64,000 bases of DNA. Origin: an uncultured Acidimicrobiia bacterium (GTDB lineage Bacteria; Actinomycetota; Acidimicrobiia; Spongiisociales; Spongiisociaceae). The stretch lies in the NCBI GenBank assembly GCA_958295745.1, contig OY282370.1, positions 2,330,548 to 2,394,547 of the forward strand. The letters run 5' to 3'. Below the pieces are notes generated by a model, which searched no databases, was not told where the DNA came from, and saw only the letters and a program-made list of their open reading frames with translations. The position numbers and the translations under genes were made by a program. The stretch's first letter is position 1; the number at the start of each line of letters is the position of its first letter. Positions 7,519-26,682 of the stretch are shown one piece after another.

Positions 7519-8169
7519 ATGCTGATCGAGCCGCTCGAACTCTGGATGACGGCCACCAACGCCTATGTGTTGGCGCCGGAATCGGACGGTCCTGCGGTGG
7601 TGGTCGACGCTCCTCCGGACCACGAAGGCAGGTTGGCCTCGCTGCTCGAACGGCGCCGGCTCGCTCCGGTCGCGTTGTTGGTCACCCACGGACACGTCGA
7701 CCACATGGGGGGAGCAGGCGCTTTGGTGGAACGCACCGGCGTCACCGCCTACATCCATCCCGACGACGACTACCTGACCCTCCACCCCGAGGAGCAGCTC
7801 CGGCAGCTGTTCGGTTTCACGCCCGACGGCGGCTGCCGGCCCCCCGAGCACTACCGGCCGCTCGATGACGGCCTGCCGCTCGCACTGGCCGGGTTCGACT
7901 TCGAGGTATTGGCCACCCCCGGTCATACGCCGGGGCACTGCTGTTTCTATCTGCGGAAACAGGGAATACTTTTCTCGGGAGACCAGCTGTTCGCCGGTTC
8001 TGTCGGGCGCACCGACCTTCCGGGCGGTAGTTTTGAGGGTCTGATGAAGAGTATGACCGAAAAGGTGCTCGTCCTGGACGACGAAGTCGAGGTGTTGCCC
8101 GGGCATGGGCCGCCCACCACCGTGGGTCGGGAACGCCGCACAAATCCCTTCCTGGCGGCTCTCCGATGA
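7519..8169 (+). CDS. MBL-fold metallo-hydrolase (glyoxalase II-like)
   Basis: A 216-aa metallo-beta-lactamase-fold hydrolase, probably cytoplasmic. Metal ligands are visible: THGHVDHMGG (His57, His59, Asp61, His62), PGHTPGHCCFY, SGDQLFAGSVGRTD and PGHGPPTTVG. The arrangement matches small hydroxyacylglutathione hydrolase-like (GloB) proteins. Because actinobacteria normally use mycothiol, the thioester substrate cannot be named from sequence. It lies between relA and hisS, the common actinobacterial location, and its stop overlaps the hisS start. Confidence 0.88.
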   Translation: MLIEPLELWMTATNAYVLAPESDGPAVVVDAPPDHEGRLASLLERRRLAPVALLVTHGHVDHMGGAGALVERTGVTAYIHPDDDYLTLHPEEQLRQLFGFTPDGGCRPPEHYRPLDDGLPLALAGFDFEVLATPGHTPGHCCFYLRKQGILFSGDQLFAGSVGRTDLPGGSFEGLMKSMTEKVLVLDDEVEVLPGHGPPTTVGRERRTNPFLAALR

Positions 8170-17215: not shown

Positions 17216-17410
17216 AGGGATGCGCGGATAGGTGCTATTGATGGGGCTCTACCAAGTTTCCCCAGTTGATGAGTCGAAGGTGATGGCGAGGCGGAGCTGA
17301 CGGCGGGGAGGTTGATGGCCCGCCTCAGGAAGGAAGGTTTGGTGGATTCGATATCGCCTGGAGTTCAGTGTTACGGTCGCGGTCGGAGTGCCGCAGGGAG
17401 GTTGTTTGTT

Positions 17411-20400
17411 GTGGTTGCTGTCAAAAACGCCGGAGGTGTTGGTTTGCGGATAGTTGTTGTATGGCTGTCGGCGGTGGTTCTGGTGTTGGCGGCCGGTGCG
17501 GCCGCGAGAGCGGCGGGGTCGTTCGGGGACGACGACGGCGGAAGCCACGAACCAGCTATCGATGCTCTAGCAGAAAAAGGAATCCTGGCAGACACCGAAT
17601 GCGATGACAACAGTATCTGCCCCGACGATCCTTTCCTGCGTTCGGTCATGGGAGTATGGGTTATCAGAGCCCTGGACGAAGCCCCTTCGACCTCTCCCAC
17701 CAGTTTCACAGACGTGAACGCCGACGAGTGGTGGGCGCCCTATGTGGAACGCCTCGCCGAGTTGGAAATCAGCCGAGGCTGCTCCACCAGCCCCCTCCGA
17801 TACTGCCCCGACCAGCCCGTAACCCGAGGGCAGATGGCAACCTTCCTTGTCCGGGCCTTCGACCTCGAACCGGGACCCTCAGCCGGGTTCACAGACAGCG
17901 CCGCCAGCAGCCACGCCAACAACATCGATGCTCTAGCCGCGGCCGGGATCACCGCAGGCTGCTCCACCGACCCGCTCCGGTACTGCCCTGGCAGGCCTGT
18001 AACCCGGGGGCAGATGGCAACCTTCCTGGCCCGTGCCCTCGACCTCCTTCCCCGCAACAAACCCCAACCAACCCCAACCCCATCCTTCGGGTTCACCACC
18101 ATCGCAGCCGGCGGGTCTCATTCGTGTGGGATACGCACCGACCGCACCATTGTCTGTTGGGGCGACAACTACTATGGGCAGGCTGACGCGCCGGCCGGGG
18201 AATTCACCGCCCTCGCCGTCGGCAGTTATCATTCGTGTGGGATACGCACCGACCGCACCATTGTCTGTTGGGGCGACAACGAGGATGGGCAGGCGGTGGC
18301 GCCGGCCGGGGAATTCACTGCCCTCGCCGTCGGCAGTTATCATTCGTGTGGGATACGCACCGACCGCACCATTGTCTGTTGGGGCGACGACGAGGATGGG
18401 CAGGCGGTGGCGCCGGGTGGTGCGTTTACTGCTGTCGCGGCTGGCGGGTCTCATTCGTGTGGGGTTCGTACTGATGGTGCTGTGGTCTGCTGGGGTTACA
18501 ACGAGGATGGGCAGGCGGTTGCACCGGCCGGGGAATTTACCGCTGTCGCGGCCGGCGGGTCTCATTCGTGTGGGATACGCACCGACCGCACCATTGTCTG
18601 TTGGGGTTACAACGAGGATGGGCGGGCGGACGCGCCGGCCGGGGAATTTACCGCTGTCGCCGTCGGCAGTTATCATTCGTGTGGGATACGCACCGACCGC
18701 ACCATTGTCTGTTGGGGCGACGACGAGGATGGGCGGGCGGTGGCGCCGGGTGGTGCGTTTACTGCTGTCGCGGCCGGCAGTTATCATTCGTGTGGGATAC
18801 GCACCGACCGCACCATTGTCTGTTGGGGCGACAACTACTCTGGGCAGGCGGTGGCGCCGGGTGGTGCATTTACTGCTGTCGCGGTTGGCGAGCGGCATTC
18901 GTGTGGGGTTCGTACTGATGGTGCTGTGGTTTGCTGGGGCGACAACCACTCTGGGCAGGCGGTGGCGCCGGGTGGTGCGTTTACTGCTGTCGCGGTTGGC
19001 GAGCGGCATTCGTGTGGGATACGCACGGACCGCACTGTGGTCTGTTGGGGTTACAACGAGGATGGGCGGGCTGACGCGCCGGCCGGGGAATTCACTGCCC
19101 TCGCGGTCGGCGGGGATCATTCGTGTGGGATACGCACGGACCGCACTGTGGTCTGTTGGGGTTACAACGAGGATGGGCGGGCGGACGCGCCGGCCGGGGA
19201 ATTTACTGCTGTCGCGGCTGGCGGGGGTCATTCGTGTGGGATACGCACGGACCGCACTGTGGTCTGTTGGGGTTACAACTACTCTGGGCAGGCGGTGGCG
19301 CCGGATGGTGCGTTTACTGCTGTCGCGGCTGGCGGGGATCATTCGTGTGGGATACGCACCGACCATACCGTGGTCTGTTGGGGTTATAACGAGGATGGGC
19401 AGGCGGTGGCGCCGGATGGTGCGTTTACTGCTGTCGCGGCTGGCGGGGGTCATTCGTGTGGGGTTCGCACCGACCGCACCGTGGTCTGTTGGGGCGACAA
19501 CGGCTCTGGGCAGGCGGTGGCGCCGGGTGGTGCGTTTACTGCTGTCGCGGTTGGCGGGTCTCATTCGTGTGGGGTTCGTACTGATGGTGCTGTGGTTTGC
19601 TGGGGTAGCAGACAATATGGGCTGGGGGTGGCGCTGGATGGTGCGTTTACTGCTGTCGCGGTTGGCGGGTCTCATTCGTGTGGGGTTCGTACTGATGGTG
19701 CTGTGGTTTGCTGGGGTAGCAGACAATATGGGCTGGGGGTGGCGCCGGGTGGTGCGTTTACTGCTGTCGCGGCCGGCAGTGAGCATTCGTGTGGGATACG
19801 CACCGACCGCACCATTGTCTGTTGGGGCGACAACTACTCTGGGCAGGCGGTTGCACCGGCCGGGGAATTTACCGCTGTCGCAGCCGGCTGGCGGCATTCG
19901 TGTGGGATACGCACCGACCGCACCGTGGTCTGTTGGGGTTACAACGACGATGGGCGGGCGGATGCGCCGGCCGGGGAATTCACCGCCATCGCCCTCGGCG
20001 AGGATCATTCGTGTGCCATAAGCACCGACCGCACCATTGTCTGTTGGGGCGACAACTACGCGGGGCGGGCGGATGCGCCGGCCGGGGAATTCACTGCCCT
20101 CGCTGTCGGCAGTTATCATTCGTGTGGGATACGCACCGACCGCACCATTGTCTGTTGGGGTTACAACGACGATGGGCGGGCGGATGCGCCGGCCGGGGAA
20201 TTCACCGCCATCGCCCTCGGCGAGGATCATTCGTGTGCCATAAGCACCGACCGCACCGCGGTCTGTTGGGGTTACAACGACGATGGGCAGGCGGACGCAC
20301 CGGCCGGTGCGTTTACTGCTGTCGCGGTCGGCAGGTCGTATTCGTGTGGGGTTCGTACTGATGGTGCTGTGGTTTGTTGGGGTTACAACGCCCAGGGGCA

Positions 20401-20524
20401 GGCGGTGGCGCCGGATGGTGCGTTTACTGCTGTCGCGGCTGGCTGGTCTCGTTCGTGTGGGGTTCGTGCTGATGGTGCTGTGGTTTGCTGGGGACCCTGG
20501 GGTTTGTCGCGTCAAGTCAGGTGA
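17411..20524 (+). CDS. exported SLH-domain protein with 22 RCC1-like Cys-pair repeats (copy B)
   Basis: A paralogue of the preceding gene (1037 aa). Its leader, signal peptide and SLH block are almost identical, as is the GTG start 10 bases after AGGGAGG. After three SLH-like modules (to about residue 215) come 22 repeats of 37 aa, alternating between a GEFTA...CGIRTDRT type and a GAFTAVA...CGVRTDGAVVCWG type. The alternation and near-identical neighbours suggest unequal crossing-over within and between copies A and B. The C-terminus (CWGPWGLSRQVR) runs straight into an IS3 fragment, so the original 3' end may be lost. Confidence 0.85.
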   Translation: MVAVKNAGGVGLRIVVVWLSAVVLVLAAGAAARAAGSFGDDDGGSHEPAIDALAEKGILADTECDDNSICPDDPFLRSVMGVWVIRALDEAPSTSPTSFTDVNADEWWAPYVERLAELEISRGCSTSPLRYCPDQPVTRGQMATFLVRAFDLEPGPSAGFTDSAASSHANNIDALAAAGITAGCSTDPLRYCPGRPVTRGQMATFLARALDLLPRNKPQPTPTPSFGFTTIAAGGSHSCGIRTDRTIVCWGDNYYGQADAPAGEFTALAVGSYHSCGIRTDRTIVCWGDNEDGQAVAPAGEFTALAVGSYHSCGIRTDRTIVCWGDDEDGQAVAPGGAFTAVAAGGSHSCGVRTDGAVVCWGYNEDGQAVAPAGEFTAVAAGGSHSCGIRTDRTIVCWGYNEDGRADAPAGEFTAVAVGSYHSCGIRTDRTIVCWGDDEDGRAVAPGGAFTAVAAGSYHSCGIRTDRTIVCWGDNYSGQAVAPGGAFTAVAVGERHSCGVRTDGAVVCWGDNHSGQAVAPGGAFTAVAVGERHSCGIRTDRTVVCWGYNEDGRADAPAGEFTALAVGGDHSCGIRTDRTVVCWGYNEDGRADAPAGEFTAVAAGGGHSCGIRTDRTVVCWGYNYSGQAVAPDGAFTAVAAGGDHSCGIRTDHTVVCWGYNEDGQAVAPDGAFTAVAAGGGHSCGVRTDRTVVCWGDNGSGQAVAPGGAFTAVAVGGSHSCGVRTDGAVVCWGSRQYGLGVALDGAFTAVAVGGSHSCGVRTDGAVVCWGSRQYGLGVAPGGAFTAVAAGSEHSCGIRTDRTIVCWGDNYSGQAVAPAGEFTAVAAGWRHSCGIRTDRTVVCWGYNDDGRADAPAGEFTAIALGEDHSCAISTDRTIVCWGDNYAGRADAPAGEFTALAVGSYHSCGIRTDRTIVCWGYNDDGRADAPAGEFTAIALGEDHSCAISTDRTAVCWGYNDDGQADAPAGAFTAVAVGRSYSCGVRTDGAVVCWGYNAQGQAVAPDGAFTAVAAGWSRSCGVRADGAVVCWGPWGLSRQVR
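18090..20502 (+). repeat. RCC1-like coding repeats, 22 units of 111 bp
   Basis: Tandem 111-bp coding repeats in copy B. Two sub-types are recognisable on DNA. One uses GGGATACGCACCGACCGCAC, the other GGGGTTCGTACTGATGGTGC; the second is T-richer than surrounding sequence. Units 14 and 15 (SRQYGLGVA type, about 19600-19750) are almost identical to each other, a recent duplication. Confidence 0.9.
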
Positions 20525-20525
20525 T

Positions 20526-20702
20526 GTGTGGCCTTTCGTGATGGATTGTTTTCTGATCGGTTCATTGTCGGGGCTGGCGAGGTCGCGGAGTAACCTTGGT
20601 GGCGGGTCGGCTATTGACGCTATGGAACAGGCCATCTGGGCTCGGCAACCCGGCCGAGGGCTGGTTCACCACTCCGATAAAGGGGATCCTAAGTACCTGC
20701 TT
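20526..20702 (+). pseudogene. decayed IS3-family transposase OrfB (DDE domain) fragment
   Basis: Starting just after the copy B stop, translation with one or more frame changes gives VAFRDGLFSDRFIVG, then LDAMEQAIWARQPGRG-LVHHSDKG. This matches the C-terminal DDE integrase core of IS3 OrfB (typically VAF...FSRRIVGW...DALEQA...GLVHHSDRG). It is the same orientation as the OrfA relic at 14271, so the two could be ends of one element split by the RCC1-like genes. That last point is speculative. Confidence 0.6.
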
Positions 20703-20707
20703 GCTCC

Positions 20708-21316
20708 GTGGGCTCCGTGGATTTCGTAATAGCACTTCACGGGGTGGCGCTGTTGTTGCTCATCTTGGCGGGAGCAATGAAGTTGGCGGTCCCGCATTCC
20801 GCGGCTGATCTTATGGGAGCGCTAGGTGTCCCGGCCAGAGCCTGGGTCCTGCGACTCGTCGGTGGGGCGGAGTTGGCGATCGGCACCGTCGCCCTTGCCG
20901 TGGGCGGGCCGGTCGCGGCCGGACTAGTGGGGGTGATCTACGTGGTGTTAGCCTTGGTCATGTTGCGGGCGTTGATGGTTGGTTCCCCGTCTTGTGGGTG
21001 TTTCGGACGGATCGATTCGCCGCCCTCTTGGATACATGTCAACGGTAATCTTTTTTTCGCTGGTGTGTCCTTTGTTACCGCCGGTGCCGGTAAGGCACCC
21101 GTTGATATGGTCGTCGATATAGCAGGTAATCAGCCAACGGGAGCTATTTCCTTGGTTCTTGTCATCGGCGTGTTGGCGGGGCTCTTTGTCGTGTCTTTCA
21201 CGGCATTGCCCGAACTCATCCACGCTTGCTCGGGAGGGAGGAGTGTATCTGATACGTTCTGGATCAAGACCGATACACTCCGACGGGTCGCAACCCTCGC
21301 TAGGAGACGGCTGTGA
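20708..21316 (+). CDS. MauE/DoxX-like membrane protein
   Basis: A 202-aa integral membrane protein with four or five predicted helices. It contains the motif SCGCFGR after the third helix, a hallmark of MauE/DoxX-type proteins that pass electrons or disulfides across the membrane. In methylamine dehydrogenase clusters MauE works with MauD to form disulfides in the small subunit MauA. Here the next two genes encode a MauA-like and a MauD-like protein, so a similar maturation role is inferred. GTG 20708 or 20717 are both possible; neither has a clear ribosome-binding site. The stop overlaps the next gene. Confidence 0.75.
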   Translation: MGSVDFVIALHGVALLLLILAGAMKLAVPHSAADLMGALGVPARAWVLRLVGGAELAIGTVALAVGGPVAAGLVGVIYVVLALVMLRALMVGSPSCGCFGRIDSPPSWIHVNGNLFFAGVSFVTAGAGKAPVDMVVDIAGNQPTGAISLVLVIGVLAGLFVVSFTALPELIHACSGGRSVSDTFWIKTDTLRRVATLARRRL

Positions 21317-22455
21317 GCCGCAGGCTCGTCAAAAAAATATCTCATCTAGGGGAACGTTACTCGTCGCGCCGCAGGTTTCTGCGTTCGTTGGTGATGTCGG
21401 CCACGGCTATTGCCTTCGCTCCCGCCTATATCGTTCGCCCTATTTCAGCGGAGGCTGCCATCATCACATGCCTCGGGTTGCAATGTACTGCCGGATCGCA
21501 CTGCTGTGACGGATGGACCGAATTCTGTTGCCGAATCACCGGAGAGAATACGTGTCCCCCCGGAACGGTTGTAGCAGGCTGGTGGAAGGTCGATAATTCG
21601 GATTTCTGTTCCTATGAAAAGGAAAAGCCGCGCCCCCGTTATTACCTTGATTGTAACGTCGTGTGTGGACATCCGGCTTTGTGTCAATGTCCTGAGGGCT
21701 GTGATACCAAAAGGGTGGATTGTGTTTCGTTTCGCTATGGCCAGTGCAACCAGGACACCTGTGTCGGGCCTATCCGATGTCGCGTCGTCACTTGTGTGCC
21801 GCCATGGCGATGGGATCCGGCGTGCCATCCTGCACCGGTACTTACCGAGGAAAGAACTCGCCACCATGATCGCTCCTGTCTACACGACGGGTTCACCGAT
21901 ATACCTCCTTATGCCTTCTATGCCGATGCGGTGAAGTGGGTGAGTGACCGAGGTATCATTACCGGCTTGACCGATGATCTGTTCGGTCCGGACGAATCGG
22001 TTAGGTGGGCGGAGTTCGCTACTTTCCTGTGGCGTTATGCGGGCAAGCCTACCCGGGCACTATCAAGCGAAATATCGAGGAACTTCTCCGATTCGTACTT
22101 CGAAAGAGCCGTAGCCTGGATGGTGGAGGAGCAGATCATAATCAACGGGTTGCCGAGTGACTTCGATTCCACCAGACAGGTGTCACGGGCTGAGGTAATC
22201 ACTTATCTACATCGTATGGCCGGGTCACCGCCGGCATTGCCACACAAGGAGCTGTTCCCCGATATAGTCGATGGGGCTTGGTACGCCGATGAACTGGACT
22301 GGGCTGTGAGTTACGGGATAGTATGGTGGTCTCTTCCTTTGTCTTTCGATCCGAATCGATCCATCAACCGAGCCGAAGCGGCTGTCTTCCTTCATCGCTT
22401 CGGCTTGAGTGACCTTCCTCCGAGCGGCAACCCGAAGCCCGACCAAGGAGTGTGA
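21313..22455 (+). CDS. Tat-exported cysteine-rich MauA-like domain fused to SLH domains
   Basis: A 380-aa exported protein. GTG 21313 follows AGGAGA by about five bases. Residues 15-50 form a twin-arginine signal (SSRRRFLRSL, then a hydrophobic stretch). Residues ~54-195 contain about 20 cysteines. The spacing resembles methylamine dehydrogenase light chain: CPPGT...GWW...FC, then YLDC...CG...CQC. In MauA, the Trp after CPPGS is half of the TTQ cofactor; a Trp is present here. The partner Trp before a later Cys appears replaced (YGQC). Three SLH-like modules (FTDIPPYAFYADAV, ISRNFSDSYFERAV, LFPDIVDGAWYADEL) end the protein. No gene for a large subunit (MauB) or MauG is adjacent. The MauA relation is by eye. 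Confidence 0.7.
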   Translation: MSRRLVKKISHLGERYSSRRRFLRSLVMSATAIAFAPAYIVRPISAEAAIITCLGLQCTAGSHCCDGWTEFCCRITGENTCPPGTVVAGWWKVDNSDFCSYEKEKPRPRYYLDCNVVCGHPALCQCPEGCDTKRVDCVSFRYGQCNQDTCVGPIRCRVVTCVPPWRWDPACHPAPVLTEERTRHHDRSCLHDGFTDIPPYAFYADAVKWVSDRGIITGLTDDLFGPDESVRWAEFATFLWRYAGKPTRALSSEISRNFSDSYFERAVAWMVEEQIIINGLPSDFDSTRQVSRAEVITYLHRMAGSPPALPHKELFPDIVDGAWYADELDWAVSYGIVWWSLPLSFDPNRSINRAEAAVFLHRFGLSDLPPSGNPKPDQGV

Positions 22456-22458
22456 AAC

Positions 22459-23220
22459 GTGACCGTCGCCGTCATTCTGCTTGCCTTCGCCGTCGGTTTC
22501 CTGACACTGCTGGTGTTTGGTCTGCTTCGAACCTATGCCGAGATCATTCGAGCTCTCAACCGTGCCGGGATCCGCCTCGACGACAGTGTCGACTCCGCTA
22601 CGCAATCCGATAATAGGACTGATGCCGGACGAGGAGATCACCTCCCCGGCGTCGTCCGAGACATAGTCGGCATATCGCCCGCCGGCGGGCTCACCAAAGT
22701 GAGTGTATCTGATGTCGGCCATCTGACACTTCTGGCTTTCCTCTCGTCGGGTTGCCGGACGTGCGAGAAGTTCTGGGGGGCGTTGGCCGATCCCGATCTA
22801 AAGCTTCCGGATCCCGACACCCGGCTGGTGATAGTTGGTCAGGATCCGGCCTACGAATCGCAGTCGGACTTCGCCGAACTCGTGCCGACGGGTGTAAAGG
22901 CGGTGATGTCCAGCGCTGCTTGGCAGGCTTACGATGTGCCCGGATCGCCGTACTTCGCGCTCGTCGACGGTGCCGCCGACCGGCTGGTCGGGGCTGGCAC
23001 GGCCGCCAGTTGGGAGCAGATGCGGACCTTGCTCCGACAAGCGCTGAGCGACGACGCTCGAATACCCCATGGACGCGGTCGTCGTTTCTCGAGCCGAAAC
23101 CGTGAGCAACGCGCCGATGACGCTCTGCGCTCTGCCGGGATCGGTCCGGATCACCCGAGCGTGGACCTCGCAAGGGATGAGAACGGATTCCCGGATCGCC
23201 GGTTACCGCCCGAACCATGA
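22459..23220 (+). CDS. MauD-like membrane-anchored thioredoxin-fold protein
   Basis: A 253-aa protein with an N-terminal membrane anchor (VILLAFAVGFLTLLVFGLL) followed by a thioredoxin fold. The active site is SSGCRTCEKFW (CxxC), and the cis-Pro segment YDVPGSPYFALVDG is present. This is the architecture of MauD/TlpA-like oxidoreductases, facing outside the membrane. It follows the MauA-like gene by three bases and overlaps the next ORF by four. It is therefore the likely thiol-disulfide partner of the cysteine-rich protein. The last ~50 residues are charged and poorly conserved-looking. Confidence 0.8.
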   Translation: MTVAVILLAFAVGFLTLLVFGLLRTYAEIIRALNRAGIRLDDSVDSATQSDNRTDAGRGDHLPGVVRDIVGISPAGGLTKVSVSDVGHLTLLAFLSSGCRTCEKFWGALADPDLKLPDPDTRLVIVGQDPAYESQSDFAELVPTGVKAVMSSAAWQAYDVPGSPYFALVDGAADRLVGAGTAASWEQMRTLLRQALSDDARIPHGRGRRFSSRNREQRADDALRSAGIGPDHPSVDLARDENGFPDRRLPPEP

Positions 23221-23879
23221 CAACTGTGTTCATCCTCGGCACGGTGGCGGCGATCGCCGCCGCGGTTCGCTCCACTTGGTCTCCTTGAGGCCTTTCGATG
23301 CTTACCAGCATCAGCCCGCTCGGCGAGCGGGCCAGGGGCAATCGTTGGTGGGTGACCGTGGGTTGGCTCACGGCGGGTGCAATGGTAGGCGGAGCGGCCC
23401 TCGGCGTTGTTCTGGGCAAACTGGGACAGGCTCTCCCCGGTACCGCCGACGATGACTGGCGGCTCATGGTGCTGGCCGCAGCCGGGGTCGGTGGCGCAGT
23501 CTGGGATCTGGCGGGGTACCGGTTTCCCGGCCGCCAAGTGAACGAAGACTGGCTGTCGGCCTTCCGGTCATGGGTGTACGGGATGGGCTTCGGGCTGCAA
23601 CTCGGCGCTCCGCCGGCGACGGTGGTAAACACGGCCCTAGTACCGATATTCATTCTGGCCGCGTTGCTGGTGGACGACACCGTAAATGGGCTGGTGATCG
23701 GAGCCGCGTTTGGTGCGGTTCGAGGGCTGAGCGCGACCATGAGTAGAGGAGTTAGGACGACAGACGAGCTTCGTCGGCTGCATCGTCGACTCGACGGTTT
23801 TGCTGATCGGGTTAGACGGCTGGGCGCCGCCGTAGCCGCGGTGCTCGCCGGGGCCGCCATCGTGAACCTGGTAGTGTGA
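23217..23879 (+). CDS. conserved membrane protein with one in-frame TGA (candidate selenocysteine or nonsense mutation)
   Basis: ATG 23217 overlaps the MauD-like stop and opens MTTVFILGTVAAIAAAVRST. It is followed by WSP, a TGA at 23286-23288, then GLSMLTSISPLGERARGN in the same frame, running to 23879 (about 220 residues in all). From memory, homologues in actinobacterial Mau-like clusters read STWSPCGLSML, so the TGA replaces a Cys. Two hairpins follow within 45 bases. Either UGA encodes selenocysteine, or the gene is cut and translation restarts at ATG 23298 (193 aa). About six membrane helices follow. The gene belongs to the Mau-like operon; a redox role is inferred. Confidence 0.65.
23297..23332 (+). 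promoter_or_regulatory. two consecutive hairpins just after the in-frame TGA (SECIS-like candidate)
   Basis: Hairpin 1 (23297-23312) is GATGCT, loop TACC, AGCATC. Hairpin 2 (23314-23332) is GCCCGCTC, loop GGC, GAGCGGGC, a perfect 8-bp stem whose loop begins 34 bases after the TGA with GG. Bacterial SECIS elements lie directly 3' of the UGA with a G-containing apical loop roughly 16-37 nt away, as I recall, so the position fits. In GC-rich coding DNA, chance hairpins are common. Confidence 0.4.
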
Positions 23880-23883
23880 CGAT

Positions 23884-24360
23884 ATGGATCGGCTTGTGGC
23901 ATACGGGGTAGGTATCGATGTTCCGGCTGGCTGGGAGGTGGAATTGTCGGTGCAAGAGGATCCGGCGACCATTGACCTGGAACTGGCGTTCTCGGAGTCG
24001 CCGCTGGTAGTGATGCACGTAGGCAACTTCTGGATGCCCGCCGATCATCGGAGCGACTATGGAGTGGAGACAACGGAGAGAATGGGGCCGAACGGTATAT
24101 TCATATCCCTCATTGAGTTCGATACCGCCTCGGCCGGGTCGCGGCTTTTTTCTTCCGTGGGTATCCCGGTGCCTCTGTACCCCGATGACTTTACCTCCGA
24201 TCAGCTTCAACGGCCTATGCGAGATCAGGCAGGGTTGCAACGCTTCTTTCGCTCAGGTTCTCGGGCATTCTGTCTCCACACGGTGATCGGTTCGCACAGC
24301 CTGCGCGGAGTGCTTACCCCCGAGGTCAACCGTATTCTGTCGGGGCTGACCATCGAGTAG
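23884..24360 (+). CDS. conserved hypothetical protein of the Mau-like cluster
   Basis: A 158-aa protein with no signal peptide or membrane helix, four bases after the membrane protein. Notable segments are VAYGVGIDVPAGWEVEL, MGPNGIFISLIEFD and DQAGLQRFFRSGSRAFCLHTV, a pattern I recall from small conserved actinobacterial proteins of unknown function (QAG-x-Q-x-FF...R-x-FCL). Its constant company with the MauD/MauE-like genes here suggests a part in the same process, but I cannot name a function. It is the last gene of the operon; the next gene is convergent. Confidence 0.7.
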   Translation: MDRLVAYGVGIDVPAGWEVELSVQEDPATIDLELAFSESPLVVMHVGNFWMPADHRSDYGVETTERMGPNGIFISLIEFDTASAGSRLFSSVGIPVPLYPDDFTSDQLQRPMRDQAGLQRFFRSGSRAFCLHTVIGSHSLRGVLTPEVNRILSGLTIE

Positions 24361-24429: not shown

Positions 24430-26682
24430 TCACACGTAGATCAACAGGGCTAGTGCTCTTCTTATGTATGAGGCCATCTGGGCCCAGGTAATGGGATCAT
24501 CGGGACAATATCGGGCCGGTGAGTCATCGCATCCCAAGGTGATCCCGGCAGCATATATAGTCGCTATAGCAGGGGCCGCGTGATGGTGCTCAATGTCGAC
24601 GAATCCCGCGCTGTTCGCGGGGGCTTCCGTCAGATTGAAGGCCCGAACAAGCAATATAGCCATTTGGGCCCGGGTAATGGGATCATCGGGACAATATAGC
24701 GCCGGGGCATTATCAACGTCATCTTGGCACCCCTTGATTATACCGCGGTCGGCGAGATGTTCCACATAGCTTAGATATGTCGCGTCAGGAGGAATGTCGC
24801 TAAAACGGCTGGTAGACGGCTTGTCAGGTATACTGCCAATCGCCTGGGATATGAACACCGCTATCTGGGCTCTGGTCACCGGCTCATTCGGAAGGGCTAG
24901 TGCTTTTCTTATGTATGAGGCCATCTGGGCCCGGGTAATGGGATCATCGGGACAATATCGGGCCGGTGAGTCATCGCATCCCAAGGTGATCCCGGCAGCA
25001 TGTATAGTCGCTATAGCAGGGGCCGCGTGATGGTGCTCAATGTCGACGAATCCCGCGCTGTTCGCGGGGGCTTCCGTCAGATTGAAGGCCCGAACAAGCA
25101 ATATAGCCATTTGGGCCCGGGTAATGGGATCATCGGGACAATATAGCGCCGGGGCATTATCAACGTCATCTTGGCACCCCTTGATTATACCGCGGTCGGC
25201 GAGATGTTCCACATAGCTTAGATATGTCGCGTCAGGAGGAATGTCGCTAAAACGGCTGGTAGACGGCTTGTCAGGTATACTGCCAATCGCCTGGGATATG
25301 AACACCGCTATCTGGGCTCTGGTCACCGGCTCATTCGGACAGTATAGGTTGATGTTACAACCGGTGACGATTCTATTCGCAACTAGTTCCTCGATGGCTG
25401 CTTCATGGATGTTGTCATCATCATCTCTAAAAACCCCTTTCCATATCCCATAACGTGCCACAAACAAGTTGGTGTTAGTTGTTCCGGTGATGATGATTTT
25501 GCCGTTGGGTTGTAGTGTTATTGCGTTTGCGGTGTCCCATCCTCCGAGGTCGGTGGTGATGGTGCCTTGTGTGCCGAAGGTTGTGTCGAGGGTGCCGTTT
25601 GGGTTGTAGCGTACTGTTGCGATGCTTCGGTCGTTGTTGGTGATGGTTGTTCCGGTGATGATGATTTTGCCGTTGGGTTGTAGTGTTATTGCGTTTGCGG
25701 TGTCCCATCCTCCGAGGTCGGTGGTGATGGTGCCTTGTGTGCCGAAGGTTGTGTCGAGGGTGCCGTTTGGGTTGTAGCGTACTGTTGCGATGCTTCGGTC
25801 GTTGTTGGTGATGGTTGTTCCGGTGATGATGATTTTGCCGTTGGGTTGTAGTGTTATTGCGTTTGCGGTGTCCCATCCTCCGAGGTCGGTGGTGATGGTG
25901 CCTTGTGTGCCGAAGGTTGTGTCGAGGGTGCCGTTTGGGTTGTAGCGTACTGTTGCGATGCTTCGGTCGTTGTTGGTGATGGTTGTTCCGGTGATGATGA
26001 TTTTGCCGTTGGGTTGTAGTGTTATTGCGTTTGCGGTGTCCCATCCTCCGAGGTCGGTGGTGATGGTGCCTTGTGTGCCGAAGGTTGTGTCGAGGGTGCC
26101 GTTTGGGTTGTAGCGTACTGTTGCGATGCTTCGGTCGTTGTTGGTGATGGTTGTTCCGGTGATGATGATTTTGCCGTTGGGTTGTAGTGTTATTGCGTTT
26201 GCGGTGTCCCATCCTCCGAGGTCGGTGGTGATGGTGCCTTGTGTGCCGAAGGTTGTGTCGAGGGTGCCGTTTGGGTTGTAGCGTACTGTTGCGATGCTTC
26301 GGTCGTTGTTGGTGATGGTTGTTCCGGTGATGATGATTTTGCCGTTGGGTTGTAGTGTTATTGCGTTTGCGGTGTCCCATCCTCCGAGGTCGGTGGTGAT
26401 GGTGCCTTGTGTGCCGAAGGTTGTGTCGAGGGTGCCGTTTGGGTTGTAGCGTACTGTTGCGATGCTTCGGTCGTTGTTGGTGATGGTTGTTCCGGTGATG
26501 ATGATTTTGCCGTTGGGTTGTAGTGTTATTGCGTTTGCGGTGTCCCATCCTCCGAGGTCGGTGGTGGTTATACCTTCTATACCGAAACTATATCCAAAGT
26601 TATTGTTGTCGTCGGCTAGGGTGGTCTTGGGGACTATTACAGTAAGGACTAGAGCGACGGTTAGTCTTGCTATAGTCTTCAT
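24430..26682 (-). CDS. exported protein with six identical 56-aa delta-60 repeats and duplicated SLH blocks
   Basis: A 750-aa secreted protein. A signal peptide (MKTIARLTVALVLTVIVP) is followed by six consecutive identical 56-aa units (WDTANAITLQPNGKIIITGT ... FGTQGTITTDLGG) and a partial seventh. The units resemble the delta-60/DUF5122 repeat that builds beta-propellers (LQPNGKI and YNPNGTLDTTFG). The C-terminal half has SLH-like modules with Cys pairs (GCNINLYCPN, GCQDDVDN...YCPDDPITRAQMA), present twice because of a 149-codon tandem duplication. Codon usage is AT-richer than the chromosome core. Probably a cell-surface protein; no enzymatic motif is visible. Confidence 0.85.
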   Translation of the reverse strand: MKTIARLTVALVLTVIVPKTTLADDNNNFGYSFGIEGITTTDLGGWDTANAITLQPNGKIIITGTTITNNDRSIATVRYNPNGTLDTTFGTQGTITTDLGGWDTANAITLQPNGKIIITGTTITNNDRSIATVRYNPNGTLDTTFGTQGTITTDLGGWDTANAITLQPNGKIIITGTTITNNDRSIATVRYNPNGTLDTTFGTQGTITTDLGGWDTANAITLQPNGKIIITGTTITNNDRSIATVRYNPNGTLDTTFGTQGTITTDLGGWDTANAITLQPNGKIIITGTTITNNDRSIATVRYNPNGTLDTTFGTQGTITTDLGGWDTANAITLQPNGKIIITGTTITNNDRSIATVRYNPNGTLDTTFGTQGTITTDLGGWDTANAITLQPNGKIIITGTTNTNLFVARYGIWKGVFRDDDDNIHEAAIEELVANRIVTGCNINLYCPNEPVTRAQIAVFISQAIGSIPDKPSTSRFSDIPPDATYLSYVEHLADRGIIKGCQDDVDNAPALYCPDDPITRAQMAILLVRAFNLTEAPANSAGFVDIEHHHAAPAIATIHAAGITLGCDDSPARYCPDDPITRAQMASYIRKALALPNEPVTRAQIAVFISQAIGSIPDKPSTSRFSDIPPDATYLSYVEHLADRGIIKGCQDDVDNAPALYCPDDPITRAQMAILLVRAFNLTEAPANSAGFVDIEHHHAAPAIATIYAAGITLGCDDSPARYCPDDPITWAQMASYIRRALALLIYV
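24449..25342 (-). repeat. tandem duplication, 2 x 447 bp, coding SLH block
   Basis: Positions 24449-24895 and 24896-25342 are near-identical direct repeats of 447 bp (149 codons, in frame). Only a few substitutions separate them (for example CTCTTCTT versus CTTTTCTT near the start). They duplicate the Cys-pair SLH modules of the delta-60 protein. Confidence 0.92.
25540..26547 (-). repeat. six tandem 168-bp coding repeats, apparently identical
   Basis: Six head-to-tail copies of a 168-bp unit (56 codons), with a partial copy at 25479-25539. I saw no base differences between full copies when reading line by line. That points to very recent expansion or continuing gene conversion. An assembly collapse or over-expansion here is possible, so copy number is uncertain. 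Confidence 0.93.

Follow-up and report, generated by a model that had tools for sequence, protein, structure and literature searches.

Reading of an in-frame UGA codon

The question raised by this locus is whether the UGA codon at position 23286, which lies inside a gene for a membrane protein, terminates translation or is read as selenocysteine (Sec). The codon was found in a window of 64,000 nucleotides from an uncultured Acidimicrobiia bacterium, the window being the whole stretch of DNA that was analysed. The gene is very likely a selenocysteine-containing homologue of MauF (probability about 0.9), a reading that lacks selenium or protein data, and the insertion of Sec at this UGA has strong support and is held with high confidence, again without direct selenium evidence. 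The features of the locus are as follows.

20708..21316, + strand: mauE-type gene (MauE/DoxX redox membrane protein), matching PF07291 MauE with E 2.6e-10, which exceeds Pfam's cut-off
21313..22455, + strand: gene of a TAT-exported Cys-rich protein; S-layer homology domains at the C-terminal end (E 2.7e-16), conserved RR leader and Cys-rich pattern
22459..23220, + strand: mauD-type gene, encoding a membrane-anchored thioredoxin-like protein with the motif SSGCRTC and an invariant CxxC; hhalign to Paracoccus/Methylobacterium MauD 98.1%, E 1.1e-13
23217..23879, + strand: mauF-type gene with the TGA read through, giving a 220-residue membrane protein with Sec24 and zero Cys; the stop codon at 23877-23879 is counted in
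23286..23288, + strand: UGA codon in its Sec reading (RSTWSP-U-GLSML); 86 TGA vs 41 TGC/TGT among distinct homologues
23884..24360, + strand: fifth cassette gene (158 aa), a conserved partner present in 48 of the 49 TGA loci with flanks

These five genes follow each other almost abutting on the same strand between 20708 and 24360, in the order mauE-type, exported Cys-rich, mauD-type, mauF-type and 158-codon gene. The start codon ATG 23217 of the mauF-type gene overlaps the mauD stop (ATGA), the in-frame TGA is codon 24, and no further stop appears until 23877-23879. The fifth gene matched no Pfam and no NCBIfam model.

Directly upstream of mauE, a 1070-aa open reading frame (17312-20524) with S-layer-homology-like and RCC1-like repeats contains 21 copies of a 111-bp unit, and a transposase-like remnant (MEQAIWARQPGRGLVHHSDKGD) lies between it and mauE at about 20530-20690. 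A minus-strand frame at 24430-26682 holds near-perfect tandem repeats that are 99% identical, at 24446-25339 (2 x 447 bp) and 25468-26566 (6.5 x 168 bp).

Kinship with MauF

Paracoccus denitrificans and Methylobacterium served as references for the mau operon, and the MauF proteins of both contain STWSPCGYSS. Profile alignment of the window family with MauF by hhalign gave a probability of 99.1% (E 1.1e-18, 169 columns), which shows that the window protein is a MauF homologue. The original prediction, made from the sequence alone, had proposed that the frame from 23217 to 23879 stays open past the TGA, that UGA replaces a Cys in a motif STWSPCG, and that this Mau-type maturation membrane protein is co-encoded with MauD-like and MauE-like proteins. 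All of these claims held: the first by reading of the frame, the second because homologues have Cys at the site, and the last by the profile matches of both neighbours, while the designation as a Mau-type maturation protein is correct since the proposed motif is that of MauF.

Other searches placed the protein less precisely. DsbD_2 (PF13386) matched 10 of 27 family members with a best E-value of 5.9e-7, the window protein itself matched neither PF13386 nor PF02683, and a PF13386 search of the window's own genome did not pick up the gene. The structure of the selenoprotein is predicted to be helical with good confidence (pLDDT 92.6). Foldseek/VIA searches with this model returned generic transporter-like helical matches only (Z < 7), so the fold search is uninformative on kinship with DsbD, and a PDB sequence search with the selenoprotein returned nothing.

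Conservation of the UGA codon

In total, 127 distinct homologues were compared at the site, which is TGA in 86 and Cys (TGC/TGT) in 41, with no third residue. Within the class the protein is present in 46 of 198 genomes, and the site reads TGA or Cys only. GTDB contigs yielded 225 relatives on scanning, and the 76 fetched loci with a readable motif comprised 46 with TGA and 30 with TGC/TGT. Extension to the phylum uncovered further TGA genes, the protein being present in 63 of 396 sampled genomes and mostly bearing one internal TGA; the site itself was read in only part of these distant members, and as the two genome collections overlap, some species may have been counted twice.

In a tree of the 127 proteins the Sec/Cys state switches only twice, with 40 of the Cys proteins in a single clade within the Sec lineages and the remaining one as a lone row. 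This placement shows that the TGA state is ancient and stable within the family. As the two switches and the shared ancestry leave few independent events, p-values for comparisons of TGA with Cys genes are inflated. Three cultured strains, Piscicoccus intestinalis, Pedococcus bigeumensis and Kineosphaera limosa, have both the TGA and tRNA-Sec.

It could be argued that the gene is a pseudogene or that a Cys codon was turned into TGA by a sequencing error in the window genome alone, for which the estimated contamination of the assembly (4%) might be invoked. The frame is intact and the operon is conserved, and TGA occupies the same codon in all 86 of these homologues, cultured strains among them; this conservation already refutes the reading, which is all but excluded. 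The original prediction had named a TGA confined to this strain among TGC/TGT relatives as one refutation and conservation of the TGA in relatives as a check; the former is not the case, and the latter was passed.

A highly diverged MauF-like gene with an in-frame TGA (ALWSP-U-GYSM, at 7744-7746 of locus L131) was also observed on the megaplasmid of Thermomicrobium roseum DSM 5159 (NC_011961.1), after genes for MauE, thioredoxin-like, light-chain-like and propeller-like proteins. Its deposited coding sequence starts downstream of the TGA. No tRNA-Sec was found on the megaplasmid, which was the only replicon searched.

A SECIS-type hairpin largely confined to TGA genes

Downstream of the UGA lie two hairpins.

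23297..23312, + strand: first hairpin GATGCT-TACC-AGCATC (arms 23297-23302/23307-23312), almost invariant in sequence among TGA genes
23314..23332, + strand: second hairpin, of bacterial-SECIS type, with an 8-bp stem GCCCGCTC/GAGCGGGC (23314-23321/23325-23332) and the loop GGC at 23322-23324

The pair of hairpins, the 8-bp stem and the GGC loop had all been predicted correctly; the loop begins 33 nt past the UGA, not 34 nt as had been stated. Taken alone, the window hairpin is an unexceptional fold (shuffle z = -1.66), and the SECIS signal therefore rests on comparison across homologues. A scan based on the bSECIS rules of PMC13188914, with a G[G/U] loop 16-37 nt after the UGA and an energy <= -7.5, was passed by 79 of the 86 TGA homologues, by 1 of the 41 Cys homologues and, among 1409 arbitrary TGA triplets in the window, by 6.2%. 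Seven TGA genes failed, three of which (L097, L104 and L109) would by eye need a bulged stem. An Rfam scan of the operon gave no match.

The consensus of 35 TGA genes consists of GATGCT/AGCATC for the first hairpin and CCGCTC-GGN-GAGCGG for the second. At three pairs of the second hairpin, double changes that keep the pairing were observed (C-G to U-A, G-C to C-G), amounting to 10 cells vs 2.1 in shuffles. In another lineage, where PLGER is replaced by PVGEA, the stem is re-registered as CUCCCC-GGUC-GGGGAG with retention of a GGU loop. The hairpin codons of TGA genes are frozen, with Ser +21 as AGC in 58/58, Leu +33 as CTC in 52/54 and Arg +42 as CGG in 53/53, and this freezing is restricted to TGA genes; Cys genes do not keep the Ser AGC. 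Before the UGA, the Arg at -18 is invariant as a residue and uses all six codons. The check by bacterial SECIS prediction that had been suggested for the locus was thus passed with a co-varying hairpin of this type.

These data bear on a second alternative, in which the UGA is a genuine stop and a truncated 193-aa protein is made from ATG 23298, as automatic annotation would have it. Such an ATG exists in frame, and the deposited T. roseum coding sequence likewise begins after its TGA. Against this, the 23 codons upstream of the UGA show the evolution of a coding sequence, in which R18, W21, S22 and P23 are invariant in TGA genes while their synonymous codons vary freely, and the truncated product would lose the first helix together with the WSP motif. 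Every homologue without TGA has Cys at the site, and the SECIS signal is a specific feature of genes with TGA. Since the Met encoded by ATG 23298 is equally invariant in Cys genes, it does not mark a special start. Termination at the UGA is accordingly very unlikely.

Selenocysteine machinery of the genome

The window's genome encodes tRNA-Sec (78.9 bits, called tRNA-SeC by ARAGORN), SelB (332 bits) and SelA (424 bits, its gene 11 nt upstream of selB), and both SelD, within GGGUAC, and the formate dehydrogenase alpha subunit FdhA have in-frame TGA codons of their own. From these components it follows that the Sec trait of this genome is complete and serves other known selenoproteins. The original prediction had asked for selA, selB, selD and tRNA-Sec in the same genome, and all were found. 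Across the class, tRNA-Sec occurs in 16/16 sampled TGA genomes vs 7/14 Cys genomes, without correction for kinship. In Pedococcus bigeumensis S9.3A (locus L112, 7300-14652) the Mau-type cassette adjoins selB, selA, tRNA-Sec and a Cys-type selD. The same genome has another tRNA-Sec close to a TGA-containing fdhA.

Decoding of the UGA as another amino acid, Trp or a near-cognate residue, can be all but ruled out. No support for it was found, the residue of homologues at the site is Cys and never Trp, mauD and the mauF-type gene both end in ordinary TGA stops within the same operon, and the genome has the full Sec system.

The cassette and its exported Cys-rich protein

In each of the 49 TGA loci with flanks, mauD immediately precedes the TGA gene; the fifth gene follows in 48, and the gene of the exported Cys-rich protein is nearby in 43. 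At the Cys loci, mauD is near in 18/30 and the gene stands alone in 12/30, and the gene order differs in most of the others. Neither MauB nor MauG was recognised among the open reading frames of the sampled loci, a result at the level of loci that is not genome-wide for MauG.

The exported protein is the likely substrate of the MauD/MauE/MauF-type system, an inference made without certainty about its identity. A relationship of its N-terminal part to the methylamine dehydrogenase light chain is possible and relies on a weak resemblance: all 16 listed structure matches are MADH/AADH light chains, with Z of only 2.1-2.6 and a model pLDDT of 56. In sequence, the TAT leader alone aligns with MauA, the profile match of the mature domain to MauA is not significant, no PF02975 match was obtained, and a PDB sequence search returned nothing. 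As the mature-domain match is insignificant and MauB and MauG were unrecognised in the loci read, the label of methylamine dehydrogenase is withheld, and the operon is probably not of that type.

Proposed function of Sec24

Sec24 is the sole conserved redox residue of the protein, standing in a WSP-U-G motif and aligned with the Cys of MauF. No Cys besides Sec is found in the window protein, and the same is true of 49 of the 86 Sec members. Decoding of UGA 23286 as Sec by SelB and tRNA-Sec, with the hairpin 33 nt further on as the guide, is strongly supported. In the proposed mechanism, Sec24 may then move electrons between the membrane or cytoplasm side and the neighbouring thioredoxin-like MauD. 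As a single chalcogen residue cannot form an internal bond, this transfer would proceed via a mixed selenenylsulfide with a partner, for which MauD with its invariant CxxC is the obvious candidate. MauD and MauE would in turn reduce, isomerise or oxidise disulfides of the Cys-rich TAT-exported protein during its maturation. MauD, MauE and MauF are believed to act in this way on the disulfides of the methylamine dehydrogenase light chain. The maturation role of Sec24 together with MauD and MauE is inferred, has not been shown experimentally, and could as well prove wrong as right.

A competing view accepts Sec insertion and regards the protein as a reductase, an antioxidant or a handler of metal or selenium unrelated to maturation of the neighbour. 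It is favoured by the orphan Cys members, 12/30 without MauD or MauE nearby, which indicate that a MauF-like protein can act outside the cassette, and by the match to DsbD_2 in merely 10 of 27 members. The position of all 49 flanked Sec members directly behind mauD, with 43 of them near the exported protein, speaks against it, and this view is considered unlikely.

The maturation role can also be extended to a bolder reading, which is offered tentatively, the odds being against it. The cassette would represent a selenoprotein branch of Mau maturation, in which a Sec-only transmembrane carrier is dedicated to an uncharacterised family of light-chain-like, TAT-exported Cys-rich proteins, possibly with a new protein-derived cofactor; this branch would be old in much of Actinomycetota and present in Thermomicrobium as well.

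Novelty and significance

A 2026 catalogue lists 119 prokaryotic selenoprotein families (PMC13188914), and its Table 1 contains no family with WSPUG, MauF or a Mau context. None of the NCBIfam selenoprotein models matches the family, and in the literature searched, which left most subscription papers and bioRxiv preprints outside its scope, no selenoprotein was linked to MauE or MauF and the family was unreported. Within these sources the predicted novelty of Sec in a Mau-type maturation protein held, and by its absence from them the Sec form of MauF is likely to be an uncatalogued selenoprotein family found in much of Actinomycetota.

Such a family, wide and stable in its distribution, would be added to those known, and would give selenium a part in maturing secreted proteins, a role that is inferred. 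In existing annotations many of these genes probably appear as hypothetical proteins in truncated form, although this too is inference. As cultured hosts exist, the selenoprotein claim is directly testable.

Comparison with known systems

Membrane or DsbD-like selenoproteins are already catalogued, for example the rhodanese/DsbD fusion TsoB and the YeeE/YedE transporter (PMC13188914). TsoB touches only one member of the window family, with E 0.26.

Among the closest counterparts is MauF, with which the family shares the STWSPCG motif, the later motif R-Q-V...W..G..YG.SLG..T and co-encoding with MauE and MauD. It differs from MauF in a shorter N-terminus, in the lack of any recognised mauB, mauG or amicyanin gene beside the window-type genes at the loci inspected, and in the presence of Sec in place of Cys in 86/127 sampled relatives of the window protein. 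The carriers DsbD and CcdA share with the family an SPC motif near the start of the membrane domain. They contain two membrane-embedded redox Cys, in contrast to the one conserved redox position of the family and the Cys-free window protein, in which one chalcogen residue would take the place of the two Cys that DsbD-like electron carriers use.
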